From a virus: DNA of 55,629 nucleotides. Position 1 is the stretch's first letter, and the number at the start of each line of letters is the position of its first letter. Location: positions 1 to 55,629 of the IMG/VR virus record IMGVR_UViG_3300049479_000313. One strand, 5' to 3'. Shown here in pieces: positions 431 to 30,359 of the stretch. The position numbers and the translations under genes were made by a program. Under the pieces are notes generated by a model that was given only the letters and a program-made list of their open reading frames with translations, had not been told where the DNA came from and ran no database searches.

Positions 431-487
431 TAATGCGCAAGCCCGGTGCCAAGCCCGGGCTCACTCATTCACGACGGAGACACCCCC

Positions 488-3180: not shown

Positions 3181-3367
3181 GCTGCTGAAGCCGGTCGTGC
3201 GTGAGGAGCCCCGCAACGGCTACATCGTCATCCTGGCCCCGGAAGGCCTGTACCTGCGCGAGAAGGGCCGTCGCACGATGTACGGCCCACTCGCCTATGC
3301 CCGCCTGTACCTGCAGGCGGTGCGCGCCGAGATCGACCTGAAGAAGCAACGGAGGAACTCCCGATGA
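3170..3367 (+). CDS. Hypothetical small basic protein (65 aa)
   Basis: Begins MATKLLKPVVREEPRNG. It overlaps the previous gene by 11 bases and the following helicase by ATGA, so it is likely co-translated with the helicase. It is basic, with a C-terminal KKQRRNSR tail. No domain is recognised; a helicase accessory role is possible only by position. Confidence 0.65.
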   Translation: MATKLLKPVVREEPRNGYIVILAPEGLYLREKGRRTMYGPLAYARLYLQAVRAEIDLKKQRRNSR

Positions 3368-4848: not shown

Positions 4849-5024
4849 CTCGTTACTTGCTCATCGCGTTAGGTGCGGCGCTCCTCGCCGCCCTCATGCA
4901 TCTGGCGTTGTGGGTGGTGGAGTGGTGTCAGTGGCGTTGGCGGGCCCGGCAAGTGCAGCGCGACGTGCTGGAAGCCATGGAGCGGGCCATGCGCACCGAG
5001 GAGACGTTCCGTGGCCCCCAATAA
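4845..5024 (+). CDS. Small single-span membrane protein (59 aa)
   Basis: Begins MTRYLLIALGAALLAALMH. Residues 4-27 form one hydrophobic span, followed by a Trp/Arg-rich interfacial segment (WCQWRWRAR) and a cytoplasmic charged helix. The start lies on the ATGA overlap with the helicase. It is not next to the lysis genes, so a holin role is less likely; superinfection exclusion or membrane anchoring is possible but unsupported. Confidence 0.65.
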   Translation: MTRYLLIALGAALLAALMHLALWVVEWCQWRWRARQVQRDVLEAMERAMRTEETFRGPQ

Positions 5025-5120
5025 ACGCGCCCGGGCGTACATACGCGCGCCGAAGATCGGGATCGTCGTCCGCGTGGGAGCTTCGCCCGCGTGGGGAGGG
5101 CGCCCGCGCCGCGCGTTTAT
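5021..5120. repeat. 100-bp element with 10-bp terminal inverted repeats (copy A)
   Basis: It is bounded by ATAAACGCGC (5021-5030) and its exact reverse complement GCGCGTTTAT (5111-5120). Its reverse complement aligns with 22000-22095: CTTCGCCCGCGTGGGGAG (5081-5098) is the exact inverse of 22017-22034, and CGGGCGTACATACGCGCG (5032-5049) is the inverse of 22066-22083 with one mismatch. The left end overlaps the stop codon of the small membrane protein and the right end abuts the ATG of the next gene. It could be a promoter/operator unit, an origin element or a small mobile repeat. Confidence 0.8.
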
Positions 5121-5123
5121 ATC

Positions 5124-5339
5124 ATGACCGACGCCGATCGGGCCCTGATTGTGGGACGCTTCGCGCTGGCTGGGTACGATGTGCGCGTGGCCAAGGACGG
5201 GGCCATTGTGGTCTATGCCCCGCGTCAGAAATTGCCGGCGATCCGCCGGGCCCTTTATCCGGAGGGCCGGGGCGCGCATATTACCCGCCCGGCCCGTGGC
5301 TGGTTTGTGGTGCATGTACCCGAGACGCTCACACGATGA
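5124..5339 (+). CDS. Hypothetical protein (71 aa)
   Basis: Begins MTDADRALIVGRFALAG. The ATG follows the right terminal repeat of the 100-bp element by only three bases and there is no purine-rich ribosome site, so translation may be weak or coupled, or the transcript leaderless. The protein alternates beta and alpha (VGRFALAGYDVRVAKDGAIVVYAP). Function unknown; it overlaps the next gene by ATGA. Confidence 0.65.
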   Translation: MTDADRALIVGRFALAGYDVRVAKDGAIVVYAPRQKLPAIRRALYPEGRGAHITRPARGWFVVHVPETLTR

Positions 5340-5728
5340 CTCCTCCGCGCGTATTCCTGATTTCCGAGCCCAGTGTCAAGAAGGCCAAGGCGGCTGGCGG
5401 TAGTTTGCCCAACATCACGCCGCTCTACGAGCATGGGGCCATTGTGATGCTGCTCAGCAGCGCCGACCCGCGCCCCATCAGCAACCCCACCCTCGCCCTT
5501 CAGCTGATTGAGGACCGGCTGGAGGCGTTCAACCCGGACCATGACTTCTTGGCGTGGGCCGGAGGCGACACCATTGCGGCCATGCTGGCCGGAGTGGCGC
5601 TGGAGCGTCGCGGCATTGACGCCGTGACATGGCTCCGGTACGATCGTGGCATTGCCCCGGACGGCAGCCGCACCGACGAGGGCGCGCGCTACACCCCGCT
5701 CCGGGTCACACTCTACAACGACGACTGA
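5336..5728 (+). CDS. Hypothetical phage protein (130 aa)
   Basis: Begins MTPPRVFLISEPSVKKAKA. The layout, a short N-terminal strand, a central LSSADPRP segment and a C-terminal FLAWAGGDTIAAMLAG helix, recalls a conserved phage hypothetical family, but I cannot name it. There are no catalytic signature residues or membrane spans. It precedes three further replication-linked small genes. Function unknown. Confidence 0.7.
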   Translation: MTPPRVFLISEPSVKKAKAAGGSLPNITPLYEHGAIVMLLSSADPRPISNPTLALQLIEDRLEAFNPDHDFLAWAGGDTIAAMLAGVALERRGIDAVTWLRYDRGIAPDGSRTDEGARYTPLRVTLYNDD

Positions 5729-5735
5729 GACGACG

Positions 5736-6287
5736 ATGTCCATCACGCGAGAACCGGTCCGCCTTGCGCAACGTGCGCGGGAGCTGCGGGCCCAGATGGA
5801 GGCGCTGGAACTGCAGGCCAAGGCGTTAGGCGAGCAGGCCCGGCAGCTGGAAGAAAGCGAAATCCCCGATGCCATGGACGAAGCGGGCATCACGAGCCTC
5901 ACGTTGGACGATGGCACCGTGCTGTCGGTGAAGCCCGTGGTGGCCGCCAGTATTCCGGCCAAGTACCGGCCCGACGCCTTGCGGTGGCTGACGGACCACG
6001 GCCACGCAGGGCTGATCAAGACCGAGGTGTCCATCACGGTGCCGCGTAAGGATCGTGGGCTCGTGCCCGCGCTGTTGGAGCAGCTGCGCCCGTTAGGCTA
6101 CAGCGTGGAAGCCACGGAGGGCGTCCACGCCCAGACGCTGGCCGCATGGGTGCGGGAGTATCTGGAGCAGGACGCCGAGCGGACGCAGTCGGGCCAGGAA
6201 GCCTTGCCCAACTTGCCCATGGAGTGGCTGGGCGTGTTCATCGGGCGCCGGGCCACGTTCAAGGCCCCCAAGAAGGAGGCCGTATGA
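5736..6287 (+). CDS. Conserved phage protein with N-terminal coiled coil (183 aa)
   Basis: Begins MSITREPVRLAQRARELRA. Residues 8-45 form a Glu/Leu/Gln-rich coiled coil. A beta-rich core follows (SLTLDDGTVLSVKP) and then the segment ALRWLTDHGHAGLIKTEV. This arrangement is familiar from proteins encoded near replication genes in podo- and siphophages, where they remain uncharacterised. It carries CGTTAGGC at 5824 and 6091. A DNA-metabolism accessory role is inferred from position, directly upstream of the ssDNA-binding-like gene. Confidence 0.75.
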   Translation: MSITREPVRLAQRARELRAQMEALELQAKALGEQARQLEESEIPDAMDEAGITSLTLDDGTVLSVKPVVAASIPAKYRPDALRWLTDHGHAGLIKTEVSITVPRKDRGLVPALLEQLRPLGYSVEATEGVHAQTLAAWVREYLEQDAERTQSGQEALPNLPMEWLGVFIGRRATFKAPKKEAV

Positions 6288-6613
6288 CCGACGCCGTCCC
6301 GGAGGGCATGGAACAGCGGGCGTTGTTCCTCCGCCTGATTAACGAGGCCCTTGGGCCGCATCTCCCAGCGCCCGTGGCCGCGCTGTTGCGCACGGTCCAG
6401 ACGGGTGAGCTGCCGACCGCGCCTCCGGTCCCAGACGTGCCATGGGACTTGGCCACGTGGGCAGCGGAGCTGCCCTGCGAGCAAGCTCATGCACTGACGA
6501 CGGACTTGGGTGCCGTGGGCGACTTGTTTACCAACGTGGCGGGCGTCGTAGGCCTGCTGCACCTTCGCGCGCATCGAGGGATCACCCCGCCGAAGAACGG
6601 CCTCGTGTCCTGA
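6284..6613 (+). CDS. Hypothetical protein (109 aa)
   Basis: Begins MTDAVPEGMEQRALFLRL. The start lies on ATGA with the previous gene and has AAGGAGGCCGT directly upstream, a strong ribosome site. It is predicted mostly helical, with a proline-rich linker (TAPPVPDVPWD) about residue 46. No family is recognised. A hairpin follows its stop, which suggests it ends a transcription unit. Confidence 0.65.
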   Translation: MTDAVPEGMEQRALFLRLINEALGPHLPAPVAALLRTVQTGELPTAPPVPDVPWDLATWAAELPCEQAHALTTDLGAVGDLFTNVAGVVGLLHLRAHRGITPPKNGLVS

Positions 6614-6617
6614 CGCT

Positions 6618-6640
6618 TCCGGGGCCCGGGCGCCCCCGGA
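6618..6640 (+). terminator. GC-rich hairpin, terminator-like
   Basis: The arms TCCGGGG (6618-6624) and CCCCGGA (6634-6640) pair perfectly around a nine-base GC loop. It is just after the stop at 6613 and before the strong leader CAGGAGAG of the next gene. No T-run follows, so it may be a processing or attenuation hairpin rather than a full terminator. Confidence 0.45.
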
Positions 6641-6685
6641 CCAATTCGCGCCCGACATCCCACATTCACAGGAGAGTTACCCCGT

Positions 6686-7507
6686 ATGGCAAAGACCAAC
6701 CTTCCCGCCACGGCAGCGGCGCCGTCCGCTGCCCCGAGTACGGACGTCATGTCCGACGAGGATCGACGCCGTATGCTGGCCGACGCCGCGAGCGACGGCA
6801 TGGCCTTCGAGAAGGAGGATCTTGCGGTCCCGTTCCTGCGCATCGCACAGGACCTGACGCCGCAGACCAAGAAGCACGAGCCCTCGTACATCGCCGGGTT
6901 GGAACCGGGCGATCTGTACCACACCGTGACCGGCGAGATGTGGAAGAACCCGGTGGGCGCTGTGGTGGTGCCGGTGGCGTTCACGCGCAGCTTCACCGAG
7001 TGGTGGCCCCGGAACAGCAAGCAGGGCAAGGGCTTCGTCAAGGACTGGGGCGTGGACGGCAGCGAGCTGGAGCGCTGCACCCGGGACGACAAGAACCGCG
7101 ACATCACCGAGCGCGGCACCCAGATCACCCGGGCGGCCCTGTACTTCGTGCTCGTGGTCAATCCGGAGACGGGCGAGTACCAGCAGGCAGCGCTGTCGCT
7201 GTCGGGCACGCAGCTCAAGCACGCCAAGAAGTGGAACGCGCTCATCAGTCAGTACAAGATGCGCGGCATTCCGGGGTTCGGGAAGTGCTACCGGCTGACC
7301 ACCGTCATCGAGAGCAACGATCAGGGCAGTTGGTCGGCGCTGCACGTGGAGGCGCACATCAACACGCTGCAGCTGCCGAACGGCGCCGAGATCTACGAGG
7401 CGGCCAAGGCGTACGCGGGCCTTGTGGCAACGGGCGCGGTGCAGGTCAAGCACGAGGACCAGGAGCCCACCGGAGCCGAGGGCGATGGAGCCAAAGTCCC
7501 CTTCTGA
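6686..7507 (+). CDS. Putative ssDNA-binding/recombination-associated protein (273 aa)
   Basis: Begins MAKTNLPATAAAPSAAP. After a disordered Ala/Pro-rich N-terminus (1-25), the core reads FEKEDLAVPFLRIAQDLTPQ, then GDLYHTVTGEMW and VPVAFTRSFTEWWPRN. This matches a phage family often labelled ssDNA-binding or recombination-associated. The C-terminus is acidic (EDQEPTGAEGDGAKVPF) and ends in Pro-Phe, like the partner-recruiting tails of SSBs. It has its own strong leader (CAGGAGAGTTACCCCGT) after a hairpin, consistent with high expression, and contains no CGTTAGGC word. The family label is from memory, so moderate confidence. Confidence 0.6.
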   Translation: MAKTNLPATAAAPSAAPSTDVMSDEDRRRMLADAASDGMAFEKEDLAVPFLRIAQDLTPQTKKHEPSYIAGLEPGDLYHTVTGEMWKNPVGAVVVPVAFTRSFTEWWPRNSKQGKGFVKDWGVDGSELERCTRDDKNRDITERGTQITRAALYFVLVVNPETGEYQQAALSLSGTQLKHAKKWNALISQYKMRGIPGFGKCYRLTTVIESNDQGSWSALHVEAHINTLQLPNGAEIYEAAKAYAGLVATGAVQVKHEDQEPTGAEGDGAKVPF

Positions 7508-7706
7508 GTTCGCCGCTGCGCGGGCGGAACTGCAGACGTGGGTGAAGACGCATGTGGTGGCTGACCAGCACGCAGAGGTCAGCCGCCTCATCGCGGCCTA
7601 CGTGGCCGCAGCGGTGCGACGGAAGGTGCAGGAACTGGCCGTGATTCGGTCCGTCGCCGAGCTCCAGCAACGGGTAAAGGACATTCTCTCTCGCACACGA
7701 CGATGA
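7485..7706 (+). CDS. Hypothetical small helical protein (73 aa)
   Basis: Begins MEPKSPSEFAAARAELQTW. It overlaps the end of the putative SSB by 23 bases in another frame and the helicase start by ATGA. The whole chain is predicted helical with heptad-like hydrophobics (LQTWVKTHVVADQHAEVSRL). A helicase-loader or adaptor role would fit the position but is not shown. Confidence 0.6.
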   Translation: MEPKSPSEFAAARAELQTWVKTHVVADQHAEVSRLIAAYVAAAVRRKVQELAVIRSVAELQQRVKDILSRTRR

Positions 7707-8884
7707 CCACGACGACGCAGGACCCGACGACGACGGTGCGCCTGACCCGCGCGCAGGAGCAAGCTGTGCAAGCCGTGCAGGCGTGGCGCCACCGGGCCGA
7801 TGACCCCTTGTTCTGGATGACGGGGTACGCGGGCACGGGCAAGAGCACGGTAGCCCGCTACGCGGCGGAAGGCGGCATCGTGGCCTTCCTCGCGCCGACG
7901 GGCAAGGCCGCCGCCGTGCTCCGGCGCAAGGGGGCCGACGGGGCCAGCACCATTCATCGGGTGCTGTACACCCCAAAGCAGCGCAGCAGCACCGCGTTGC
8001 AGCAGCTGACCAACATGCTCCAGCGTGCGGCGGGCCCCCTGGAACGGGCGGAGATCCAACGCAAGCTGGCCGACGAGATGGAGCGGCTGAAGCAGCCGCA
8101 CTGGGAGTATAACGAAGCCACATGGCTGCGCAGCGCGGACCTCGTGGTGGTGGACGAGGCCAGCATGGTCAGCGAGAAGGTGCTGCTCGATCTGCTGCGC
8201 ACTGTGCCCAAGGTGCTGTGCCTCGGAGACCCGGCGCAGTTGCCGCCCGTCATGGCGAAGTCGCCCTTGCTGGACCGGCGCCCGGACTTCCACTTGGAAG
8301 AGATCCACCGCCACTCGCTGGACAGCGCCGTCTTGCGCGCCGCCACCTATGTGCGACAGCATGGGCGCCTGCCGGGGCGCAGCGACGGGGACGACTATCG
8401 GGAAGTCCCGTTAGGCGAGGCCAACTGGGACGTGTTCCGCACGCCGGATCAGGTGCTGGTGTCGACGAACGAGGCCCGGCGCAACGTCAACACCCGGTTC
8501 CGAGCCCGGCTGGGCCTGACCGAGACCCTGTGCCCGGGCGATCGTATTGTGGTGCTCCGCAACAGCTACAACGAAGGACTCTACAACGGCACCACGGCGC
8601 GCGTGGTGGCTTGCACGGAGGACAGCATGTTCCCGAACACGTACTACACGGACGTGCTGTCGGACGAGGGCCCGGCCGAGAACATCAGTCTCCAGCTGCA
8701 AGAGGATCCTGCGAAGATGCACCGCGAGTCCGTGCCCGCCACCTATGGCTACGCGCTGACGGTGCACAAGGCACAGGGCAGTGAGTGGGATCATGTGCTG
8801 GTGTGGGTGCAGGGCAAGGTGAGCCCCGCGTGGCTGTACACGGCCCTTACCCGGGCGTCACAGCGGCTCACGATCGTCCGATGA
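7703..8884 (+). CDS. Dda/RecD2-like superfamily 1B helicase (393 aa)
   Basis: An ATP-dependent 5'-3' helicase of the Dda/RecD class is inferred. Walker A is GYAGTGKST (residues 41-49), Walker B VVVDEAS (148-154, D151-E152), motif III CLGDPAQLPPV, the motif IV region EIHRHS, and C-terminal UvrD_C_2-type motifs YALTVHKAQGSEWDHV and YTALTRASQ. The length is close to Dda (about 440). An insertion of charged helix (about 95-135) separates motifs Ia and II. The next gene starts at its stop codon (ATGA), so the two helicases are probably co-translated. Contains CGTTAGGC at 8409. Confidence 0.92.
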   Translation: MTTTTQDPTTTVRLTRAQEQAVQAVQAWRHRADDPLFWMTGYAGTGKSTVARYAAEGGIVAFLAPTGKAAAVLRRKGADGASTIHRVLYTPKQRSSTALQQLTNMLQRAAGPLERAEIQRKLADEMERLKQPHWEYNEATWLRSADLVVVDEASMVSEKVLLDLLRTVPKVLCLGDPAQLPPVMAKSPLLDRRPDFHLEEIHRHSLDSAVLRAATYVRQHGRLPGRSDGDDYREVPLGEANWDVFRTPDQVLVSTNEARRNVNTRFRARLGLTETLCPGDRIVVLRNSYNEGLYNGTTARVVACTEDSMFPNTYYTDVLSDEGPAENISLQLQEDPAKMHRESVPATYGYALTVHKAQGSEWDHVLVWVQGKVSPAWLYTALTRASQRLTIVR

Positions 8885-10371
8885 AGGACGTGCGCGTGCT
8901 GTTTGGCCCGCCCGGCACGGGGAAGACCACGGCCCTGCTGGACATGGTGGACACGTTCTTGGACGAGGGCGGCGACCCGGGGCGCCTTGTGTTCAGCAGC
9001 TACACGCGGCAAGCCGCGCGGGAGGCCCGGGAGCGCGCGGCCGATCGCTTTGGGCTGGAGGACGAGGCCCTCCCCTACTTCCGCACGCTGCACGCGCTGG
9101 CCTTCCGCTTGTTGGGGCTGCGCCGCAGTGATGTGCTGAGTGACGACGATTACAAGGACGTGGCCAACAGCTTGGGTCTTGGCCTGAGCGGCCAGTGGGC
9201 CCGGGGTGCGGGCCATCCGGGCCAACAACGGGGCGACGAGTGCGCGGCCATCTATGCGTGGCACCGGGCCCGGGGCGGGACGTTGGCGGATGCGTGGCGG
9301 GCGGTCGGGACGGGCAACGTGCATCTCACGCAAGTCCAGACCTTCGTGGACGCGTTAGGCGAAGTCAAGCGCGCCCGGCACCGGCTGGACTTCGCCGACA
9401 TGTTGGACGAGTGCCATGTGGCTCCGCCCGTGGATCTGGTGATCTTGGACGAGGCGCAAGACCTGAGCGACGCGCAATGGCAGTTCGCCGTGCGCTTGGC
9501 CCGGAACGCCACGCGCGTGGTGGTCGCCGGGGACGACGATCAGGCCATCTACGACTTTGCCGGGGCGCATAGTGCCCGGTTCCGGGGTGTCGAGGGGCAG
9601 CGTCAGGTGCTGACCCAGTCGCACCGGCTGGCCGCGCCCATCCACCGTGTGGCCGAAGCCGTGGCCACACAGATCAAGTCCCGCGTGGCCAAGGCGTACC
9701 ATCCCGCCGCGCACGAGGGGCGGGTGCACACCGTGCCTACGCTGGACCACGTCACGTTAGGCGACGGCACGGTGCTACTGCTGGCTCGGCACAATCACCA
9801 GCTGCGGGAGCTGGTGTCCGTGGCTCGGGCCCAAGGCGTTGTCTACCACCATCAGGGGCGCTGGTCTACCGACACGGCGGCGGTGCGCGCGGCTGTGGCG
9901 TACGAGCGTCTGCGCCGGGGCGAGGGCGTGGCCCCGGACGTGGCTGACGCCGTGCGCTTGCTGGTGCCGGGGGCGGAATGGCAGGTGGTGCCGGGCACCA
10001 ATGCCCCGGTGCGCTGGCACGCCATCCGGTGGCCCTTTGAGGGGCGTCCCGAGTGGTACACGGCGCTGGTGCGCCTGGATGGCGATGACGTGGCCTATGT
10101 CCGGGCTCTCCGGCGTAAGGGAGAATCACTCCGAGGCCCCGGACGCGTGCGCATCAGCACCATTCACGGCGCCAAGGGCGGACAGGCCGATCATGTAGTG
10201 CTCTTGACGGATGTGAGTGCCCGCACCTACAATGGTGCCTGGATGGCGGGCGACGCGGAGGCCCGCGTGTGGTATGTGGGCGCGACGCGGGCCGCTCGCA
10301 CGTTGACGTTAGTTCGTTCACGCGGTCCCCGGGTCTGGCCCGGGTGGCCCGCGTTAGGCGTAGGCATCTAA
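8881..10371 (+). CDS. UvrD-like superfamily 1A helicase, second copy (496 aa)
   Basis: Starts MKDVRVLFGPPGTGKTTALL at the ATGA overlap. Walker A GPPGTGKTT is at residues 9-17, Walker B VILDEAQDLSD (D190-E191), motif III AGDDDQAIYDFAGAH, motif IV SHRLAAPIHR, motif V ISTIHGAKGGQADHV and motif VI WYVGATRAARTL. It belongs to the UvrD/PcrA group but is only distantly similar to the 3364-4848 protein. It carries CGTTAGGC at 9353, 9755 and 10352. Having two 1A-type helicases and one 1B-type helicase but no DnaB-like helicase is notable. Confidence 0.92.
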   Translation: MKDVRVLFGPPGTGKTTALLDMVDTFLDEGGDPGRLVFSSYTRQAAREARERAADRFGLEDEALPYFRTLHALAFRLLGLRRSDVLSDDDYKDVANSLGLGLSGQWARGAGHPGQQRGDECAAIYAWHRARGGTLADAWRAVGTGNVHLTQVQTFVDALGEVKRARHRLDFADMLDECHVAPPVDLVILDEAQDLSDAQWQFAVRLARNATRVVVAGDDDQAIYDFAGAHSARFRGVEGQRQVLTQSHRLAAPIHRVAEAVATQIKSRVAKAYHPAAHEGRVHTVPTLDHVTLGDGTVLLLARHNHQLRELVSVARAQGVVYHHQGRWSTDTAAVRAAVAYERLRRGEGVAPDVADAVRLLVPGAEWQVVPGTNAPVRWHAIRWPFEGRPEWYTALVRLDGDDVAYVRALRRKGESLRGPGRVRISTIHGAKGGQADHVVLLTDVSARTYNGAWMAGDAEARVWYVGATRAARTLTLVRSRGPRVWPGWPALGVGI

Positions 10372-10375
10372 CCCC

Positions 10376-10387
10376 AAGGAGGTGATC
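10376..10387 (+). promoter_or_regulatory. Twelve-base perfect Shine-Dalgarno sequence
   Basis: AAGGAGGTGATC is the full complement of the 3' end of typical bacterial 16S rRNA (GATCACCTCCTT). It is followed at once by TTG (10388), five bases from GGAGG. It decides the start of the next gene and predicts strong ribosome capture. Confidence 0.7.
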
Positions 10388-11170
10388 TTGTATGAGATAG
10401 TCGCCGATGGTATCCCGCTGCCCGGGCGCTGGCCGTTGGCCGTGGCGGCGGCTCGGGCCCGGGCCTTGATCCGCCGGAATCGGGCCCGGAAGGCAGCGGT
10501 CTGGCCGGTGCACCGGCAATTTCTTCGTCCCACGAAAGTGTTCTTTCACTCTCTTCATCTACTCATGACGACCCTCACGAAGCCCTCGCACGCGGTGATC
10601 ACGTATGTGAACGCAGATCACCCCACGGATGTCCAGCTGCACCGCACCCCGTACGACCCGCCGGAAGGCCGGGTGGTGTGGCTCATCACCATGCCGGATG
10701 ACCTGATGCGCATGCCGATGACCGTTCTCCTGGCCGCGTACAACCGTGCCACGGGCAAGGCCATCAAGTCATTCAACACCCGCGCCAAGGGCGCAGTCCA
10801 GACGTACGCCGCGCTGCGCGGCTGGCTGGACCTCGATCTTCCTGATGTTCCCGCAGTTCCTTCTTCCCCCGAACCGACTGAGACTTCTCCCATGAAGACC
10901 AAGACCACCAAGACCAAGCGCGCCACGACCTCCAAGAAGAACACCGCCTCGGGGCGCCCCGGGCGCCGGTCCAAGTTCACCCCGGAGAGCACCATCACGC
11001 TCGTCGCCAAGGAGAATCCGAAGCGCCCGGGCAGCGCTGCGCACACGCGCTTTGCGTTCTACCGCACGGGGCAGACCGTGCAGCAGTTCCTCGACAAGGG
11101 CGGCTGGCTGGCGGACATCCGCTGGGACGAGAAGATGGGCTTCATCCGCGTGAGCGGCGCCAAGAAGTAG
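10388..11170 (+). CDS. Conserved phage hypothetical protein, probable TTG start (260 aa)
   Basis: From TTG 10388 the frame reads MYEIVADGIPLPGRWPL and stays open through an internal ATG at 10565 (MTTLTKPSHAVITYVN), which has no ribosome site of its own. The perfect Shine-Dalgarno sequence favours TTG; if so, residues 1-59 are an Arg/Ala-rich N-terminal module. Residues about 100-140 (LMRMPMTVLLAAYNRATGKAIKSF) and the C-terminus (GRRSKFTP, ITLVAKENPKRPGSAAH, FLDKGGWLADIRWDEKMGF) match a domain common in phages and bacteria with no known activity. A Lys/Thr-rich linker joins them. A DNA-binding role is plausible but unproven. Confidence 0.7.
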   Translation: MYEIVADGIPLPGRWPLAVAAARARALIRRNRARKAAVWPVHRQFLRPTKVFFHSLHLLMTTLTKPSHAVITYVNADHPTDVQLHRTPYDPPEGRVVWLITMPDDLMRMPMTVLLAAYNRATGKAIKSFNTRAKGAVQTYAALRGWLDLDLPDVPAVPSSPEPTETSPMKTKTTKTKRATTSKKNTASGRPGRRSKFTPESTITLVAKENPKRPGSAAHTRFAFYRTGQTVQQFLDKGGWLADIRWDEKMGFIRVSGAKK

Positions 11171-11172
11171 AC

Positions 11173-12012
11173 ATGCGCATCTTCATTCCGACCGCAGGAC
11201 GGGTGGGGCGCCAGCGTACGTGGCGGGCGCTCCCTCCGGCCTGGAGAGAGAAGACGGTCGTCGTCTGCCCGGCGCGAGAGCTCCCACAGCTCGCGCATTG
11301 GGACCGCGTCCCGGAGTCCGCGCTGTTGGCACAGCCGGAGGACGTGCGGACCATCTCGCACAAACGCCAGTGGATGCTGGAGCATGCCGCCGCGCTCGGG
11401 GAGGAGTCGTTCCTGATGATGGACGACGACCTGGAGTTCCATGCCCGGGAACATCCGCACCAGCCGGAGGCCTCTAGCCTCCGACGAGGCTTCGCCACGG
11501 AGGCCCGGATCGATCGGGCGCTCCGCTGGCTGGAGCATCTGCTCGATCACGAGCAGCGCGTGATTCACGGCGGATTGGGCAGTCGACAGGGCAACAACAC
11601 CAAGCAGGCGGTAGAAGTGGTGACGCGGGCGATGCATGCGTTCGCGCTGCGGCCCCGGGGCGCACTGGCCGCCGGGGTGGACTTCCGGGCGGTGTCGTGC
11701 CGCGAGGACTTCCACGACACCCTGACCTTGCTCCGCGCCGGGGCGCCGAACGTGGTGCTGCACGACGTGGTGGCTGACCCGGGGCCCTTCGGGGCGGAGG
11801 GCGGGTGCTCGGACGAACGGACCATGCAATCCTCGAACGAGGCTGCGGAGCAGCTGGCCGTGCTCTGGCCGGGGTTGGTCCGGGTGGTGGAGAAGGCGTA
11901 CTCGTCGTCCATCCCTCGGAAAGAGGTCGTGGTGCAGTGGCGCCGGGCGTACGCCGGAGGGGACGCTCCGGATGCGAGTGAGTTGTTCTTCTCGTACCGG
12001 AGCTTCCCATGA
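11173..12012 (+). CDS. TAGT-like glycosyltransferase, putative DNA-base glycosylation (279 aa)
   Basis: Begins MRIFIPTAGRVGRQRTW. The N-terminal strand and GR-RQ.TW segment, the metal-binding DDD triad in FLMMDDDLEF (D84-D86), an NNTKQAVE helix and REDFHDTLTLLRAG (E178-D179) fit a GT-A-like fold of the TET-associated glycosyltransferase (TAGT) type known from phages with modified bases. The expected role is transfer of a sugar from an NDP-sugar to hydroxymethylated pyrimidines in DNA. Downstream genes supply a kinase, a nucleotidyltransferase and a base-hypermodification protein. Assignment rests on motif memory; another acceptor is possible. Confidence 0.65.
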   Translation: MRIFIPTAGRVGRQRTWRALPPAWREKTVVVCPARELPQLAHWDRVPESALLAQPEDVRTISHKRQWMLEHAAALGEESFLMMDDDLEFHAREHPHQPEASSLRRGFATEARIDRALRWLEHLLDHEQRVIHGGLGSRQGNNTKQAVEVVTRAMHAFALRPRGALAAGVDFRAVSCREDFHDTLTLLRAGAPNVVLHDVVADPGPFGAEGGCSDERTMQSSNEAAEQLAVLWPGLVRVVEKAYSSSIPRKEVVVQWRRAYAGGDAPDASELFFSYRSFP

Positions 12013-14729: not shown

Positions 14730-14959
14730 AGTCATGCCTTGGCTGCCGGTTCGCGGATTGGCAGCGCACGCGCACCGGGAGGCTCCATCCGTCCGGCGAT
14801 GGACAGTGCACGTTCGTGGTCAAGGTGCCCGCGCTGCCGCTCTCCATGCGCTGGGGCGGCTCCTGGGGCCGAAATGACCTCGATGCAACGGGCGGCGCGA
14901 TCAGCCGTAAGCACTCGTTTCAGTCCCATTGTCCCTGCTACCAACCCACTCTCTCATGA
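14726..14959 (+). CDS. Small cysteine-rich protein (77 aa)
   Basis: Begins MKSCLGCRFADWQRT. CxxC near the N-terminus (C4, C7), a central C (about 28) and CPC near the C-terminus could form a zinc or redox site. It lies on ATGA overlaps between the hypermodification protein and the TS-fold enzyme, so it is part of the cassette's operon. No named family. The start follows CGGAGGATGT, a good ribosome site. Confidence 0.7.
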   Translation: MKSCLGCRFADWQRTRTGRLHPSGDGQCTFVVKVPALPLSMRWGGSWGRNDLDATGGAISRKHSFQSHCPCYQPTLS

Positions 14960-15999
14960 CCCACACTCTCAGCATCACCAACGTCAACCACGCCTATGTG
15001 GCCGGAGTCAACTTGATCCGCGACATTGGCGTGGCCGTCGCCACCCGCAATGGCCCCGCGTTCCGCGCCCCGGGCACGGTGGTCACCACGTTTCACCATC
15101 CCATGGAGCGCGTGCTGTTCGACTCGACGCGCGATGCCAACCCGTTCTTCCATCTGTTCGAGTCGCTCTGGATCCTGGCCGGGCGCGAGGACGTGCGTCC
15201 GCTCGCCTTCTTCAACAAGCGCATGGCCAACTACAGCGACGATGGCGAACGTTTCCACGGAGCCTACGGCTGGCGCTTGCGCTACGGCTTTGGCGTCGAT
15301 CAGATCGACCGAGCCATCACCATGCTCCGGCGCAACCCGCTGGACCGGCGCGTGGTGCTGTCGATTTGGCACCCGGCGCTGGACCTCGGCACGGACAGCG
15401 CGGACATTCCGTGCAACGACATGCTGAAGCTGTCGTCCGACGGCGCCCAGCTGGACCTCGTGGTGTTCAACCGCAGTAACGACATCCTCTGGGGCGCGTA
15501 CGGCGCCAACGCCGTGCAGTTCGCCTTCCTGCTGGAGTACCTCGCCGCCGGGGCCGGGCTGCGGCCCGGGCGCTTGGTGCAGGTCAGCACGGACTGGCAT
15601 TGGTACGGCAGCGACCGCCCGGCGCCGCTGGTCTACACGCCGACGATGTATGACCAGCGCCCGAACGGCGCGTGGCGCCCGTTGCTCGCCGCCGAGGAAA
15701 CGTTGGATCAACTCGACGATGATCTCGAGCTCTTGTTCGACTGCATGGAAGCCGTGGCCACGCGGAAAGCGCCAGAGTGCCTGTCGCCGAGCTTTTACAC
15801 GGCGTGGATGGCTACGGTGGCGTGGCCCATGTTCACGGCATGGCTGCACTACAAGAGCCACTGGCTGGACGGCGAACCCAAGACGCCGAACTTGCCGTTC
15901 GCCATGCGCACCTCGTACAACATCGCGGCCCCGGATTGGTCCGTTGCCGCCCTGAATTGGCTGGAGCGCCGTTACCTCAAGACCCTCACCCACCCATGA
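14956..15999 (+). CDS. Thymidylate-synthase-fold dNMP methylase/hydroxymethylase (347 aa)
   Basis: Begins MTHTLSITNVNHAYVAG. The catalytic loop DIPCNDML places the nucleophile at C153. The folate/nucleotide-binding region FNRSNDILWGAYGANAVQF corresponds to the QRSxDxxLGxPFN region of classical ThyA but with the variant sequence seen in phage dNMP hydroxymethylases. FHLFESLWILAGREDVRPL is the typical N-terminal element. It methylates or hydroxymethylates dUMP or dCMP with methylenetetrahydrofolate. The hypermodification neighbours favour hydroxymethylation (5-hmdUMP or 5-hmdCMP); plain ThyA activity is the alternative. Confidence 0.8.
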   Translation: MTHTLSITNVNHAYVAGVNLIRDIGVAVATRNGPAFRAPGTVVTTFHHPMERVLFDSTRDANPFFHLFESLWILAGREDVRPLAFFNKRMANYSDDGERFHGAYGWRLRYGFGVDQIDRAITMLRRNPLDRRVVLSIWHPALDLGTDSADIPCNDMLKLSSDGAQLDLVVFNRSNDILWGAYGANAVQFAFLLEYLAAGAGLRPGRLVQVSTDWHWYGSDRPAPLVYTPTMYDQRPNGAWRPLLAAEETLDQLDDDLELLFDCMEAVATRKAPECLSPSFYTAWMATVAWPMFTAWLHYKSHWLDGEPKTPNLPFAMRTSYNIAAPDWSVAALNWLERRYLKTLTHP

Positions 16000-16901
16000 C
16001 CTTCCTCACTCGCTATCTCCAACTCCGCCGGAGCGGCGCCGTGCGTCGCTGGCACACCGTGCCCCACGCTCCGCGCCAGACCGTGGCTGAGCACAGCTTC
16101 CACACCGCCCTGCTGGCGGTGGCTCTCTGGGGCGAGGACACCAGCAGTAAGCTGCTGCGCTGGTGCCTGACCCACGACTTGGCCGAGGGCCTTGTGGCGG
16201 ATGTGCCCGCGCCCGCCCGGTGGGCCGACCCCGCGTTAGGCGCGGCGGTGCGTCGCATGGAACAGGTGGTCGAAGCCCATCTGGACCTGACCCGGTACAT
16301 GGACCTCGACCCGGAGGACACGGCCCGGGCCAAGCTGCTGGACGCGCTGGAAGTGCTGTTCTTCGCGGCGGAGCAGGTGCGCGCGGGGGCCCGCACGGAG
16401 TTCGCCCCCATCATGGTCGCGGTGTGGGAGCGCATGAACTCGGGCATGTGGGCCCTGCCCGAGCTGATCGGCATGGAGGTCGTGCGCGAACTGGACGACT
16501 TCGTCCGGGCCACGCGCTTCCCCGCATGGCGGTGCGAACGCTGCGGCGAGTTTGCCCATGTGACCGAGCAGGCGGAGGGCCTCCGCTGGTGCCTGAGCTG
16601 CCAAGGCCATGACATCGGCACCATCATGGCCACGCGCGTGGCCCGGGAGGCGCGCATCGGCAATGATGACCCGCACGACGCGTTCGTGGCCACTCGGGCG
16701 TTGCCGTACAATCCGACTGACCGCGTCCGTGTCCGCGTCAGTGCCGTGGGAGCGTTCACCGCGTCCAACGGCATGCTGATCCGGCCCGGAACGGAAGGCC
16801 TGCGCCTTGACTACATCGCCGCTCCCGTGGGCCAGTGCTACGTGAAGCTCATGAACGAGGAGACGATTGTGACCCCGACCCTCTATTGGAAGGAGATCTA
16901 G
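15996..16901 (+). CDS. YfbR-like HD-domain 5'-nucleotidase with C-terminal zinc ribbon (301 aa)
   Basis: Begins MTFLTRYLQLRRSGAVRRW. HD motifs: AEHSFHTALL (H33), LTHDLAEGLVADVPAPAR (H60-D61, the YfbR-type motif) and LDALEVLFF (D116). YfbR removes phosphate from deoxynucleoside 5'-monophosphates; related phage HD enzymes hydrolyse selected dNTPs. A second module (about 175-205) has CERCGEF and CLSCQGHD, a zinc ribbon not found in YfbR (about 200 aa), followed by a C-terminal beta-rich part. Placed between the TS-fold enzyme and DNA polymerase, it likely removes the unmodified or competing nucleotide. Contains CGTTAGGC at 16234. Confidence 0.8.
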   Translation: MTFLTRYLQLRRSGAVRRWHTVPHAPRQTVAEHSFHTALLAVALWGEDTSSKLLRWCLTHDLAEGLVADVPAPARWADPALGAAVRRMEQVVEAHLDLTRYMDLDPEDTARAKLLDALEVLFFAAEQVRAGARTEFAPIMVAVWERMNSGMWALPELIGMEVVRELDDFVRATRFPAWRCERCGEFAHVTEQAEGLRWCLSCQGHDIGTIMATRVAREARIGNDDPHDAFVATRALPYNPTDRVRVRVSAVGAFTASNGMLIRPGTEGLRLDYIAAPVGQCYVKLMNEETIVTPTLYWKEI

Positions 16902-16905
16902 TCAC

Positions 16906-18777
16906 ATGGCCGGGCGCAAACGCGGACGGCAGGATAACAGCCTGCTCCAGGGGGACTTGTTCGACTCCCCCATGAACAACTCCACGGGCTGGGCCCCGCC
17001 CATGGAGTTTCCCCGCCTGCATGGCATGATCAGCCTCGACCTCGAGACCCGGGACGATGGGCTACGCACCGCGTTAGGCCCGGGGTGGCCCGTGGGCAAT
17101 GGACATCCCACCGGGGTGGCCGTGGCCACGGCCGATGCCGCGTGGTACTTCCCCACGCGGCATGCGCCGGGCGGCAACGTGGACGAGCGCGCGGTGTGGC
17201 GTTGGCTGCGCGACCAGCTCGGCCACGTGGATAGCGTGGTCATGCAGAATGCCACGTACGATCTGGGCTGGCTGCGCACGGTGGATGTAGCGGTGCCGTG
17301 CCCCATCCACGACACGAAGGCGATGGCGGCCCTCCTGGACGAGAACCGCAACAGCTATTCGCTGGAAGCCCTCGGCAAGGACTACCTCGGACAGGAGAAG
17401 CGCGTCGACCTGCTCGACACGTACGCCAAGCGCTGGGGCATGACCGGCAAGCCGGGGGAGAACATCTGGCGCATGCCGCCGTTCATCGTGGGCCCGTACG
17501 CGGAGATGGATGCCCGGCTCACGTTCGACTTGGCCCAGAGCTTCTTGCCCCGGCTCGCTGCCGAGGACCTCCTGGACGTGTACCAGCTGGAAATGGACTT
17601 GGTGCCCGTGCTGCTGGCCATGCGCGCCCGGGGCATGCGGGTGGACGTGCCTCGGGCCGAGCAATTGCGCGAACAGCTGCTCTCCGAGGAAGCCGACCTG
17701 CGTGATAGCATTAAGCAGCTGAGCGGCGAGTCGGTGGATCCGTGGGACGTGGAGAGCGTGGCCCGGGCGCTCAAGGCCCGGGGCATTGTGCCCGGGCGCA
17801 CGGAGGCGGGCGCCGTCAGCATCACGAAGGAGTTCCTCGCCGCCCACGCGGACGAGCGCGTGGCCCACGACGTGCTCCAGCTGCGCCGCGTGAATAAGCT
17901 GCGCAGTGGGTTCGTGGAGGGCGCGTTCCTGGCCCATGTGCAGAACGGGCGCATGTACCCGGAATTCCATCCCCTGCGCAGCGACGACGGGGGCGCCGTC
18001 ACCGGGCGCTTCAGCAGTAGCAACCCCAACGCCCAGCAGTTCCCCGCCCGGCGCGAGGAGGACGCGCGCCTGATCCGGGGGCTGATCCTGCCGGAGGACG
18101 GCTGTCAGTGGTTTGCCGCCGACTACAACCAGCAGGAGCCGCGCATGCTGGTGCACTTTGCCAGCCTCATGCAGCTGCGCCGCGCCGGAGAAGCGGCTGA
18201 GGCGTACCGGCGCGACCCGCGCACGGACTTCCATCAGTTCGTGGCCGATCTCACGGGGCTGCCGCGCAAGATCGCGAAGAACATTAATCTGGGCAAGTTC
18301 TACGGCATGGGCGGCGGCAAGTACGCGCGCAGTGTGGGCCTGCCCGTGGTGCGGGTCGACGGGCGAGAGTACGCGGGCCCGGAGGCGCAGGCGCAGCTGG
18401 ATCAGTACGATGCGCACTTGCCCTTCGTGTCGGCCTTCTACCAGCGGGCGCAAGGCGTGGCCCGGGAACGTGGCTGGGTGCGGACCATCGTGGGTCGACG
18501 GCGCCGCTTCCAGCCCGTGCACGAGCGCGGGGCCAGCCCGCACAAGGCGCTGAACGCCGTGATCCAGGGCAGCAGCGCCGACCAGAACAAGCGGGCGATG
18601 GTGGCGCTGCATCGGTCCGGGGTCGCGTTAGGCGCCGTGGTGCACGACGAGATCGACGGCAGCGCCCCGCCCGAGGACGCGGCCCTGATTACGGAGTGCA
18701 TGCAGGACTGTCTCCGGCTGGAGGTGCCCAGCGTGGTGGACTTGGCATGGGGCCCCACGTGGGGCGAGGCCGCATGA
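16906..18777 (+). CDS. Family A DNA polymerase with 3'-5' exonuclease (623 aa)
   Basis: The replicative polymerase. The exonuclease domain (about 35-230) has Exo I LDLET (D45, E47), Exo II NATYDLGWL and Exo III YAEMDARLTF (D202). The polymerase domain has motif A ADYNQQEPRMLV (D406; usual form DYSQIELR), an O-helix-like KIAKNINLGKFYGMGGG and motif C VHDEID (D581). There is no 5' nuclease domain, so the length fits T7- or phage-type Pol A. The motif A sequence NQQEP in place of SQIEL is a noticeable variant. It is separated from the HD gene by four bases. Contains CGTTAGGC at 17072 and 18626. Confidence 0.95.
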   Translation: MAGRKRGRQDNSLLQGDLFDSPMNNSTGWAPPMEFPRLHGMISLDLETRDDGLRTALGPGWPVGNGHPTGVAVATADAAWYFPTRHAPGGNVDERAVWRWLRDQLGHVDSVVMQNATYDLGWLRTVDVAVPCPIHDTKAMAALLDENRNSYSLEALGKDYLGQEKRVDLLDTYAKRWGMTGKPGENIWRMPPFIVGPYAEMDARLTFDLAQSFLPRLAAEDLLDVYQLEMDLVPVLLAMRARGMRVDVPRAEQLREQLLSEEADLRDSIKQLSGESVDPWDVESVARALKARGIVPGRTEAGAVSITKEFLAAHADERVAHDVLQLRRVNKLRSGFVEGAFLAHVQNGRMYPEFHPLRSDDGGAVTGRFSSSNPNAQQFPARREEDARLIRGLILPEDGCQWFAADYNQQEPRMLVHFASLMQLRRAGEAAEAYRRDPRTDFHQFVADLTGLPRKIAKNINLGKFYGMGGGKYARSVGLPVVRVDGREYAGPEAQAQLDQYDAHLPFVSAFYQRAQGVARERGWVRTIVGRRRRFQPVHERGASPHKALNAVIQGSSADQNKRAMVALHRSGVALGAVVHDEIDGSAPPEDAALITECMQDCLRLEVPSVVDLAWGPTWGEAA

Positions 18778-19013
18778 ATACCTACGTGCTGTTGCGAGAG
18801 ACGCGTCGGAAGGGTGACCTGATCCACGTGCACCGGACCGGGTGTGGGTGTCGCTTCCGGCGCGGCGGCATCTGGTGCTTCATCCAGGCGTCCGGCCTCA
18901 CCCTGCTGCAAACATCCTCGGCGTACACCCGCCGGGTGCAAGACTATCTACCGCATTTCGTGCGCACCCATCCGTGCGCATTTGACCCTCCTTCTTCGGA
19001 GACTTCTCCATGA
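18774..19013 (+). CDS. Hypothetical cysteine-containing protein (79 aa)
   Basis: Begins MNTYVLLRETRRKGDLIHV at the ATGA overlap with the polymerase. HRTGCGCRFRRGGIWCF contains CGC and a later C, and the chain is basic. It could be a small nucleic-acid-binding protein; no family recognised. It overlaps the lipoprotein gene by ATGA. Confidence 0.65.
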   Translation: MNTYVLLRETRRKGDLIHVHRTGCGCRFRRGGIWCFIQASGLTLLQTSSAYTRRVQDYLPHFVRTHPCAFDPPSSETSP

Positions 19014-19261
19014 CTCGACGACTCCTGTTCCTGAGCATGCTCCTCGCCAGTTGTTCTGACTCCACGGATCCTTCGCCTGCCCCGGCGCGCACGGTGGAAA
19101 GTGCCACGCGGGCCCTGGACGAGGCGCTCATCGCCCTGAACTGGGCCCAGTATGACTTGTTCGCTGTGGGCGGACGCGACATCGTGGTCAGCGTGCAGGT
19201 GGACAGCGCCATTGCGCCCCACTACTTCCGCGTACCCCGGCGCCCGGCGGTGCGCCCATGA
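19010..19261 (+). CDS. Small lipoprotein (83 aa)
   Basis: Begins MTRRLLFLSMLLASCSDST. Two arginines, a hydrophobic core (5-13) and the lipobox LASC with C15 indicate a type II signal peptide; the mature chain starts CSDSTDPSPAP, a flexible acidic tether, and continues with a short helical region. It should be lipid-anchored outside the inner membrane. Encoded among replication genes rather than lysis genes, it is unlikely to be an Rz1; a superinfection-exclusion lipoprotein is a reasonable guess. Overlaps the following gene by ATGA. Confidence 0.7.
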   Translation: MTRRLLFLSMLLASCSDSTDPSPAPARTVESATRALDEALIALNWAQYDLFAVGGRDIVVSVQVDSAIAPHYFRVPRRPAVRP

Positions 19262-19536
19262 CGACCCGCCCTGAGCTGAAGACCATTGAGCGGCTGCGCT
19301 TGGCCGCATGGTGGACCGTGCGCTGGGCCCAGAACGCGGCCCTGCGCAACGATCTCCACGCGTTTCAGGCCCAGTGTACAGCCATCGCCGTGGTGGCCGA
19401 GCCGACGGTGCTGCGGGAGCAGGTGGTGCGGCTGGGCGAGCAGTTGCAGGCGCTGGCCCTGCGCGTAGAGGATGAGCGACATCGGAACGCCATGCTGTTC
19501 GTGGCCTCGGAGGCGGAGTCCTATGCTGCCGGTTGA
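19258..19536 (+). CDS. Hypothetical helical protein (92 aa)
   Basis: Begins MTTRPELKTIERLRLAAWW. It is almost entirely helical, with a coiled-coil-like C-terminal half (LREQVVRLGEQLQALALRVEDE). There is no hydrophobic span long enough for a membrane. It overlaps the primase gene by 14 bases, suggesting coupling. Function unknown. Confidence 0.65.
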   Translation: MTTRPELKTIERLRLAAWWTVRWAQNAALRNDLHAFQAQCTAIAVVAEPTVLREQVVRLGEQLQALALRVEDERHRNAMLFVASEAESYAAG

Positions 19537-21070
19537 AGACCGCTTCCAGCACTTGTTCCGGGGCTATGGGCTGGCCTATGGGCGCTTCAACGCGGCCCCG
19601 CCGAGCGCGGGCGGCGCCAAGGTCAAGGGCCGGGCCGAAACGGTGCGGGCCCCGTTAGGCCCGGCGCAGTACGCGGCGCATCTCAGTGGGGCGGCGGGGC
19701 TGGGGGTGATCATGCTGGACGAGCGCGATCAGTGCGCCTTTGTGGCCATTGATTACGATCATCGCACCGTGGACCACGCCGTGCTGGCTCGGCAACTGGC
19801 GGAGTTGCCCGTGGTGGTGTGCCGCAGCAAGTCGGGCGGCGCGCACCTCTACGTGTTCTTCGCGGCCCCGGCCGACGCAGCGATTGCGTTGCTGTGGCTG
19901 GAGGAACTGCGCGCGTGGCTGGGGTTGCCGAGTGGGACGGAACTGTTCCCCAAGCAGACGCAGCGCGCCGATGCCAACGACATTGGCAGCTGGATTAATC
20001 TGCCCTACATGGGCGGCGACGCCAGCACCCGCTACGCCGTGCACCCGGAGGAGGGGGCGCTGAGTCTGGCGGCCTTCCTCGACTACGCCGAGAGCATGCG
20101 CGTGGCCGATCAGTCCGCACTGCCTACCTTGCCGCAGCGCGGCACCCTGTTCGCCGATGGGCCGCCCTGCCTGCAGGCGTACGAGGCCCAAGGCGGCTTC
20201 CCCGAGGGCATGCGCAACGAGGGCATGAAGGCCGTGGCCACCTATGCCAAGCGCCGCTATGGGGCCCAGTGGGAGGAGGAGCTGGTGCGGGCCAACCCCG
20301 TGATGGGGAACCTGCCCTTGGCCGAGATCAGCCACTTGGCCAAGTCCTACGGCCGGAAGGACTACACCTACGCCTGCGGCAAGGCGCCGCTCGTCACGCA
20401 CTGTGCGCGCAAGGTGTGCGTGCGACGCAAGTTTGGGGTGCGTGGCAGCGGCAGCGGCGAGGAAGAGGCCGAGCTCATGGCCGAGCTGGATGGGCTGGTG
20501 TGTGTGCAGAGCGAGCCCGACGCCTCGGGCTTGGTCGATGCGGAGAGTACCATGTGGTACCTGAACGTCAACGGGCACCGGGTGCGCCTCTCCACGGAGG
20601 AGCTCCAGAACCCGGCGGCCTTCAATCGGGCGTGCTTGGCGCAGATCCGGTTGCAGCCCTTAGCGTTAGGCGCCAAGGCATGGCGCACCAAGGTCAACGA
20701 GCTCGCGAGTGCGGCCGAGGTGCAGACCATTCCCTATGCGGCCACGCCCGACGGCATCACGTGGGCGCATGTGGGCGAGTACTTGGCCAACAGCGCCACG
20801 TGCACCGAGAAGCGACAGGTGCTCATGGGCGGCGTGTACGTGGAGCAGGGCGAGGCGCACTTTGTGCTGCATCGCCTGATGGAGTTCCTGCATGCGCGGC
20901 GCGTGCCCTTCGGGCGCGCGGAGCGCTTGCGCATCATCCTGCTGCGGCATGGGGCGCGCTTGTACCACGAGCCCCTGAACGGCGCCGCCGCCGTGCCCCT
21001 TTGGGCCGTGCCCCATGTGCCCGGGGCTCCGGCCGACGCGCCCGCTGCGGCGGTGGGTGTGGCGTTCTAA
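19523..21070 (+). CDS. Archaeo-eukaryotic-type (TOTE-like) DNA primase (515 aa)
   Basis: Begins MLPVEDRFQHLFRGYGLAY. The AEP core includes FVAIDYDHR (D77, D79, metal ligands), CRSKSGGAHLYVFF (H108), then FPKQTQ and GSWINLPYMGG, the order seen in phage primases with the TOTE-conflict-system AEP domain. The C-terminal part (about 215-500) has a Cys cluster (CGKAPLVTHCARKVCVRRK), resembling the zinc segment next to primase-helicases, but no Walker A motif is seen, so it lacks its own helicase. It would prime DNA synthesis for the PolA at 16906. Contains CGTTAGGC at 19653 and 20664. Confidence 0.85.
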   Translation: MLPVEDRFQHLFRGYGLAYGRFNAAPPSAGGAKVKGRAETVRAPLGPAQYAAHLSGAAGLGVIMLDERDQCAFVAIDYDHRTVDHAVLARQLAELPVVVCRSKSGGAHLYVFFAAPADAAIALLWLEELRAWLGLPSGTELFPKQTQRADANDIGSWINLPYMGGDASTRYAVHPEEGALSLAAFLDYAESMRVADQSALPTLPQRGTLFADGPPCLQAYEAQGGFPEGMRNEGMKAVATYAKRRYGAQWEEELVRANPVMGNLPLAEISHLAKSYGRKDYTYACGKAPLVTHCARKVCVRRKFGVRGSGSGEEEAELMAELDGLVCVQSEPDASGLVDAESTMWYLNVNGHRVRLSTEELQNPAAFNRACLAQIRLQPLALGAKAWRTKVNELASAAEVQTIPYAATPDGITWAHVGEYLANSATCTEKRQVLMGGVYVEQGEAHFVLHRLMEFLHARRVPFGRAERLRIILLRHGARLYHEPLNGAAAVPLWAVPHVPGAPADAPAAAVGVAF

Positions 21071-21087
21071 CCTTCATGGAGAAAACA

Positions 21088-21333
21088 ATGACGAAGACCC
21101 TCGAAGAATTGGCCCAGTGGGCGGAGCAGTACGCCGGGGACCCCGACGCGCTGCGCTCGGCGGCCTATTACGGCAGCGCGGAAGAGCATCTGACGGCCAT
21201 TGCGGTTGTCCTGCGACGACAGCACACGCTCGTCCTCCGGGCGCGTGCGGTCGTCGGGCACCTGACGAGGCTCCGCGCCGCCGCCGATATTGTGGACACC
21301 CTTGCTGAGGAGACGGCCCATGACGTCCATTGA
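21088..21333 (+). CDS. Hypothetical helical protein (81 aa)
   Basis: Begins MTKTLEELAQWAEQYAG. ATG 21088 is preceded by GGAGAAAACA, a clear ribosome site; an in-frame ATG at 21076 overlaps it and is less likely. Wholly helical with many Ala/Leu/Arg. Function unknown. Confidence 0.65.
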   Translation: MTKTLEELAQWAEQYAGDPDALRSAAYYGSAEEHLTAIAVVLRRQHTLVLRARAVVGHLTRLRAAADIVDTLAEETAHDVH

Positions 21334-21535
21334 CCCTCGCCCCTTGTCCTTGTCCGTGCATCGCGTGCCGGGCGGCGAGTGGGTGCGCGTGCCGGGCGAA
21401 GTGCACACGGTCACGGTGCTCAATCCGCGCACGGTGGGCGCCCTGCGCATGGCCAAGGCGTTAGGCGCCCGGCTGGTGGTCGAGTACGACGACCACCTCA
21501 CGCTGCGCATCTACGTGGAACAGGAGGTACGATGA
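21320..21535 (+). CDS. Hypothetical protein (71 aa)
   Basis: Begins MTSIDPRPLSLSVHRVPG. It overlaps the previous gene by 14 bases. Predicted beta-rich with VTVLNPRTVGALRMAKALGARLVVEYDDH in a beta-alpha-beta order. Contains CGTTAGGC at 21459. No family recognised. Confidence 0.6.
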   Translation: MTSIDPRPLSLSVHRVPGGEWVRVPGEVHTVTVLNPRTVGALRMAKALGARLVVEYDDHLTLRIYVEQEVR

Positions 21536-21738
21536 TCCCCAACGTGCTGGTCTACCTTGGCGGCGTGCTGGTGTTCGCCGCCGGGGCCCGCCTGCTCACG
21601 GCGCACTACGGCGGGCCGCTGGGCTTCACCGACCGGGTCCTCATCGCCGTGGCGGCGGTCATGTGGCCGTTCAGCTTGCCGTTCTTGATCGTGCTGGGGC
21701 TGGCCTACGTCGCCACGGGACGATTCTTTGATGGCTAG
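21532..21738 (+). CDS. Two-span membrane protein (68 aa)
   Basis: Begins MIPNVLVYLGGVLVFAAGA. Hydrophobic spans at about 4-25 and 36-60 are separated by a short polar loop (HYGGPLGFTDR). CAGGAGGTAC upstream is a strong ribosome site. A two-span 68-residue protein could be a holin, but it sits 22 kb from the lysin genes. A second holin or an exclusion protein are alternatives. Confidence 0.65.
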   Translation: MIPNVLVYLGGVLVFAAGARLLTAHYGGPLGFTDRVLIAVAAVMWPFSLPFLIVLGLAYVATGRFFDG

Positions 21739-21759
21739 CCGGTCCGCAGCGGAGTTATC

Positions 21760-21786
21760 GTGGGCCCGGTCAGGGGCCGGGCCCAC
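21760..21786 (+). terminator. GC-rich hairpin, terminator-like
   Basis: GTGGGCCCGG (21760-21769) and CCGGGCCCAC (21777-21786) form a perfect 10-bp stem with a seven-base loop, then CCCCATTTTACGG. It follows the stop at 21738 and resembles the GGGCCCGG stem at 2407. With the weak T-run it may terminate or attenuate. Confidence 0.55.
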
Positions 21787-21807
21787 CCCCATTTTACGGA
21801 GCCGCAA

Positions 21808-21969
21808 ATGGACTTTCGTGAGGTTGAACGGCTGGACTGGTCGGCGCGGCAACTCGCCCGGGCGTTTGATGAACTGGCCGTGGCCCTGGAGCAGTCGCTG
21901 CGCTCCCTTTCCCGGTTCGCGGTCGCGGCTGTCGTCCGCTCCCGCTCCCGATCGCGGAGGAAGTGGTGA
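21808..21969 (+). CDS. Small basic-tailed protein (53 aa)
   Basis: Begins MDFREVERLDWSARQLARA and ends RSRSRSRRKW. The ATTTTACGGAGCCGCAA leader gives a GGAG site. An amphipathic helix plus an Arg/Ser-rich tail suggests nucleic-acid or membrane contact. Short, so moderate confidence that it is a gene. Confidence 0.5.
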   Translation: MDFREVERLDWSARQLARAFDELAVALEQSLRSLSRFAVAAVVRSRSRSRRKW

Positions 21970-21999
21970 TGCGCAAACTCCTCGCGCGCGTACGCGCGT

Positions 22000-22095
22000 A
22001 TATGCGCGCGCGCGCACTCCCCACGCGGGCGAAGGATTTCGGAAGAACATCTCCGCGTCTTCGACGCGCGTACGTACGCCCGAGCGCGCGTTTAT
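22000..22095. repeat. Inverted relative of the 100-bp element (copy B)
   Basis: It reads as a diverged reverse complement of 5021-5120: CTCCCCACGCGGGCGAAG (22017-22034) is an exact inverse of 5081-5098, CGCGCGTACGTACGCCCG (22066-22083) the near-exact inverse of 5032-5049, and the right end GCGCGTTTAT (22086-22095) equals the terminal repeat of copy A. The left end ATATGCGCGC (22000) matches ATAAACGCGC at 8 of 10 bases. The centre differs. The next gene's ATG overlaps or abuts the right end, as in copy A. The rest of the 126-base gap is CG-alternating DNA. Confidence 0.75.
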
Positions 22096-30285: not shown

Positions 30286-30292
30286 CCCCCGG

Positions 30293-30326: not shown

Positions 30327-30359
30327 GCGCTCCGTCATCTTCCACTTCTCACTTCTTCC

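Follow-up and report, generated by a model that had tools for sequence, protein, structure and literature searches.

Two diverged, inverted copies of a non-coding element bracket the replication module of a phage genome: a possible duplicated cis-regulatory site

The window, that is the whole stretch of DNA analysed here, comprises the 55,629 bases of an IMG/VR virus record with 66% GC, and all of its called genes lie on the + strand. Its left part is a region of small genes. A UvrD-like helicase is encoded at 3364-4848, and a replication and DNA-modification block extends from about 5.1 to 21.7 kb. This block encodes Pam3 gp32/33/34-like proteins, two further helicases besides the UvrD-like one, a family A DNA polymerase and an AEP-type primase (19523-21070, +), which matches AEP-TOTE and phrog_21866. 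The primase also gives a weak match to a solved structure in the PDB, an entry that we take to be prim-pol-like. The terminase, portal, head and tail genes are found to the right of the block. The segment 11173-16901 is likely a thymine-hypermodification cluster; it encodes a glucosyltransferase-like protein, an APH-like kinase, a protein of the HMUDK type (5-hmdU kinase type), a thymidylate-synthase-like protein and an HD-domain nucleotidase. An esterase-like gene (phrog_3341, 49432-50364) is situated amid the presumed tail genes.

Several other features of the window were recorded. The non-coding left end of about 490 nt contains a type-P5 twister self-cleaving ribozyme at 392-458 (+), a clear match (51.4 bits, gathering value 37.6) lying some 30 nt ahead of the gene at 488. 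A 57-bp direct repeat (79%) occurs at 2364-2420 and 21720-21775 (+) behind two unrelated small genes, where it spans the last codons, the stop and the first part of a long terminator-like hairpin rich in GC; its second copy lies about 225 bp upstream of element B described below. Intergenic hairpins that are long and near-perfect, most of which have no T-run, are present at 2403-2470, 30287-30329, 53340-53372 and 55549-55595 and are probably the terminators of this genome. An imperfect 66-bp in-frame repeat array occupies 52125-52799 within the gene at 51954-52976.

An earlier note on this DNA had described two related elements of about 100 bp in inverted orientation, and our analysis recovered both. 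Element A (about 104 bp, non-coding, 5020-5123, +) fills the gap from the stop of the gene at 4845-5023 to the ATG at 5124. Element B (22000-22098, -) is its inverted homologue and ends in the ATG at 22096. A BLASTN search of the record with A returned B with E = 4.7e-13 and 78% identity over 93 of 111 bases. The local alignment of the two scores 82, whereas 2,000 dinucleotide shuffles reach 40 at most, with a median of 19. The earlier note had allowed for the case that the similarity outside an exact 18-base block is no better than that of shuffled GC-rich sequence. This does not apply to the left part of the alignment, which without the 18-mer scores 54 against a shuffled maximum of 33 (0 of 5,000 dinucleotide shuffles reach 54); the 25 bases on the right, taken by themselves, do not reach significance. 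In a self-comparison of the whole window, A and B form the only dispersed pair of such strength, all stronger matches being repeats in tandem inside a single gene near 52 kb. The similarity between A and B is real and well above chance, and judged by sequence the two are diverged copies of one non-coding element.

Element A is bounded by perfect 10-bp terminal inverted repeats, as previously described, with ATAAACGCGC at 5021-5030 (+) and GCGCGTTTAT at 5111-5120. The former is gene-distal and overlaps the TAA stop (5021-5023) of the preceding gene. To this can be added a left terminal repeat of B, TATATGCGCGC at 22000, which is imperfect. In the alignment, the arms are conserved and the centre between them has diverged. 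Block 1 has the form CGGGCGTAC[A/G]TACGCGCG, with a single mismatch in 18 bases: in A it reads CGGGCGTACATACGCGCG (5032-5049, +), which contains GCGTACATACGC, and in B CGGGCGTACGTACGCGCG (22065-22082, -). The conserved stretch around it is CGGGCGTAC[A/G]TACGCGCG.CGAAGA, and the distal end ATAAACGCGC is conserved as well. Block 2 is the exact 18-mer CTTCGCCCGCGTGGGGAG, which is found at 5081-5098 (+) and 22017-22034 (-) and has no third site in the window even with 3 mismatches. Both blocks, the diverged centres and the shared element ends (GCGCGTTTAT) are thus as the earlier note had them. The alignment contains one-base gaps at several places, and since these indels are not multiples of three, no reading frame is conserved across A and B.

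The gene-proximal end of A is the 13-mer CGCGCGTTTATAT at 5110-5122 (+), one base before the ATG at 5124; in B the same 13-mer is found at 22085-22097 (+), where it overlaps the ATG at 22096. It is identical in the two elements and in direct orientation on the + strand, although the elements themselves are inverted. The gene-distal ends have drifted (AATAAACGCGC in A versus TATATGCGCGC in B). There are only two + strand sites for TTTATA in the window, both in the CGCGCGTTTATAT ends and a few bases from an ATG, and none for TATAAA. The composition of the elements also stands out: per 105 bases, the two copies have 22 and 26 CpG where the mean is 12.5 (sd 2.9). When the alternating purine-pyrimidine tracts of the window are ranked by length, three of the top five are located in or at A and B. 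The longest of all, with 35 strictly alternating nt (21983-22017), is found at the distal edge of B.

Downstream of A lies the first gene of the replication and modification module, which encodes 71 aa (5124-5339, +) and has no family match. The gene downstream of B (22096-22557, +) is the first one before the terminase genes and matches phrog_2165. As the alignment to this profile begins at residue 2 (on profile position 3), the ATG at 22096 is likely the native start, and the notion that B interrupts the start of this gene is unsupported. The claim that each element abuts an ATG is correct for A and has to be corrected for B, where the ATG overlaps the end of the element. Neither start has a Shine-Dalgarno site at the normal distance, as had been claimed; this is weak evidence, since other genes here also have none. 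An in-frame GTG at 5091 within A, preceded by GGGAG, is an alternative start for the 71-aa gene. A 44-codon ORF with a Shine-Dalgarno site runs through B (21969-22103, +) and overlaps the ATG at 22096; its GC content by codon position (0.67/0.64/0.62) is flat, unlike that of most other genes, and not coding-like. Such flat values, together with indels that are not multiples of three, rule out a conserved peptide encoded by A or B.

Relatives of the element were sought in several collections. In IMG/VR, the exact 18-mer, block 1 and the terminal-repeat patterns gave either nothing or chance matches in unrelated sequence. A 19-base pattern matched one GTDB contig, from an unrelated member of the Myxococcales, and the match does not extend. 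BLASTN against phages and plasmids (plasmids with A only) returned just short matches of 21-45 bases with E > 0.01. Relatives of the phage were searched for with the helicase, the terminase, the DNA polymerase, the Pam3-gp34-like protein and the product of the gene after B, and two of these queries found none. Per protein, identity to the nearest relatives is about 45-54% (best about 54%), the helicase being closest to locus L003 and to Brevundimonas phages and the terminase to loci L005-L008. A and B are absent from all relative loci searched (L003-L019), and the element appears to be private to this phage. Dinoroseobacter phage R26L (PP882867.1) has a distant homologue of one module protein (33% identical).

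The reading that we tentatively prefer is that A and B are duplicates of a cis-regulatory site with palindromic ends, one at the head of each of two operons, a function that we infer. A would mark the upstream edge of a replication/modification operon and B that of a packaging/structural operon, and both would most likely act at the DNA level, as operators or promoters of the genes on their right. The two ends of the element appear to carry versions of the same TATAAACGCGC repeat, so that either orientation would put the same end beside the downstream start codon and an inverted duplicate could stay functional. As a guess from position, a phage or host protein might bind the arms and control transcription at the two operon heads.

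For this regulatory reading we count the homology beyond chance, the way in which A fills a gap between tightly packed genes and B ends at a start codon, the restriction of TTTATA to the ends of A and B, the shared CGCGCGTTTATAT in direct orientation, the conserved arms round a diverged centre with single-base indels, and the outlier composition. Phage R26L likewise has repeated non-coding modules that abut gene starts on both strands. The best hint that the gene-facing end may have a function is the identity of CGCGCGTTTATAT, in two copies only. Against a regulatory site, a sigma-70-like promoter could be recognised at neither A nor B, and if the ATG is to be part of the transcript, TATAT lies too near it to be a normal -10 box. 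A fixed orientation relative to the gene is usual in directional promoter modules, whereas A and B are inverted. Moreover, the conserved gene-proximal ends are seen in two copies only, and no related genome was found. Of the earlier proposal of paired promoters, operators or origins, we retain the regulatory site as the favoured possibility, with reservations that include the missing sigma-70-like promoter.

It is possible, if unlikely, that A and B are instead opposed replication-initiation sites, each copy being a strand-specific hairpin from which the phage AEP primase initiates the synthesis of DNA. The inverted orientation would then follow from there being one such site on each strand. 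The copies are homologous, lie on opposite strands and bracket the replication module, and the primase gene is about 0.9 kb upstream of B. Base pairing between the conserved arms is possible on the A(+)/B(-) strand, with the variable centre in between; of 500 column shuffles, 490 give a poorer score than the two-sequence consensus fold and 10 reach it. However, folds of single sequences are not significantly stable (z from about -0.3 to -1.5). The cumulative GC-skew minimum at 4.05 kb, which is 1 kb from A, is loose support only, and nothing marks B. Plasmid RSF1010 carries just one site of this sort on each of its strands (PMC4434180), but they are only 40 nt long and no relative of its primase was found by sequence among solved structures. 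Initiation sites would also leave unexplained that the copies end at start codons. A combined reading, in which a tailed phage with hypermodified DNA uses A and B both as one-per-strand AEP-primase initiation sites and as heads of the replication and packaging operons, seems to us very unlikely.

As unlikely as opposed initiation sites by themselves, in our view, is that A and B are relics of a miniature non-autonomous mobile element, as the earlier note had also proposed, that is, two insertions of an element of about 100 bp with terminal inverted repeats that have since diverged. The discrete length, the terminal repeats (10 bp and perfect in A, imperfect in B), the foreign-looking composition and the presence of two copies in opposite orientation are all consistent with such an origin. 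However, no further copy was found in the window, viral contigs, phage records or plasmids (plasmids searched with A only), the sole GTDB match of the 19-base pattern being unrelated. On inspection, a target-site duplication is not visible (no matching flanks of at least 3 bp), and a transposase was not seen among the proteins scanned. Because the gene-facing ends are kept while the distal ends have drifted, we prefer a regulatory site over a dead mobile element.

A role in the mRNA leader, as an attenuator, terminator or translational operator for the gene whose ATG adjoins, is quite unlikely. The terminal repeats of A would pair into a 10-bp stem immediately ahead of the ATG, and neither start has a Shine-Dalgarno site at the normal distance. 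However, the two mRNAs would hold opposite strands of the element, which makes one shared RNA structure impossible or at least unlikely. A terminator scan flagged neither site, Rfam gave nothing credible on A or B even with permissive filters, and the fold z-scores are about -1.4 and -0.2, with no single-sequence fold being significantly stable. The suggestion that the 17 kb between A and B can flip is favoured by the inverted orientation only and is hardly credible, since the record has no match to the tyrosine or serine recombinase, resolvase or telomere resolvase families (PF00589, PF00239, PF16684), the longest identical stretch is 18 bp, the centres have diverged, and the called genes inside and outside the segment all read rightward, so that flipping the segment would leave the entire replication module pointing the opposite way to the rest of the genes.

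Should A and B be a pair of operators or of initiation sites, they would mark the way in which an uncharacterised phage lineage separates replication from packaging and would offer a defined sequence to use in footprinting or origin mapping. As matters stand, they are one more lineage-specific intergenic repeat. Like MITEs, A and B are short, have terminal inverted repeats and are present in more than one copy; unlike MITEs, they were found without a target-site duplication, dispersal beyond two copies or a partner transposase. A comparison with protelomerase (hairpin telomere) sites finds no telomere resolvase match in the record, with a profile, PF16684, that among the control genomes matched only in Synechococcus elongatus. 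In RSF1010, ssiA and ssiB are 40-nt single-strand initiation sites, one per strand, that work with the primase RepB' (PMC4434180). A on the + strand and B on the - strand are likewise two related sites beside a gene for an archaeo-eukaryotic-type primase. They differ in being about 100 bp long and 17 kb apart, and the phage primase, with its matches to AEP-TOTE and phrog_21866, is not a detectable relative of RepB', which is also absent from its PDB matches.

A self-comparison of phage R26L (loci L035/L036) revealed repeated modules of about 48 bp directly before ATGs on both strands (near 18937, 63674, 69770 and 75775), each with a TATAACTCGGTTATA palindrome, a GC hairpin, a Shine-Dalgarno site and the ATG. 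As in A and B, these modules are non-coding, repeated and palindrome-bearing and abut start codons. Unlike A and B, they are fixed in orientation with respect to the gene and contain a Shine-Dalgarno site, and because they share no sequence with A or B, the likeness is an analogy, not homology. Repeats of this kind, lineage-specific, intergenic and tied to start codons, are already known in phages, which limits the novelty of our element. The start-associated sequences (SAS) of cluster K mycobacteriophages, with their extended inverted repeats (ESAS), are non-coding repeats at gene starts in the non-structural region and essentially private to that phage group (PMC3203893). The SAS is a 13-bp sequence, GGGATAGGAGCCC, with 11-19 copies in nearly always one orientation, and some of the SAS/ESAS elements have imperfect inverted repeats with a variable spacer (PMC3203893). 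By direct reading, GGGATAGGAGCCC is absent from A and B, whose shared end is CGCGCGTTTATAT in two copies; they also differ from SAS and ESAS in being two inverted copies of about 100 bp with unrelated sequence. What they have in common with SAS and ESAS is the architecture, in which imperfect inverted repeats around a variable centre lie upstream of a start codon and are tied to gene starts.
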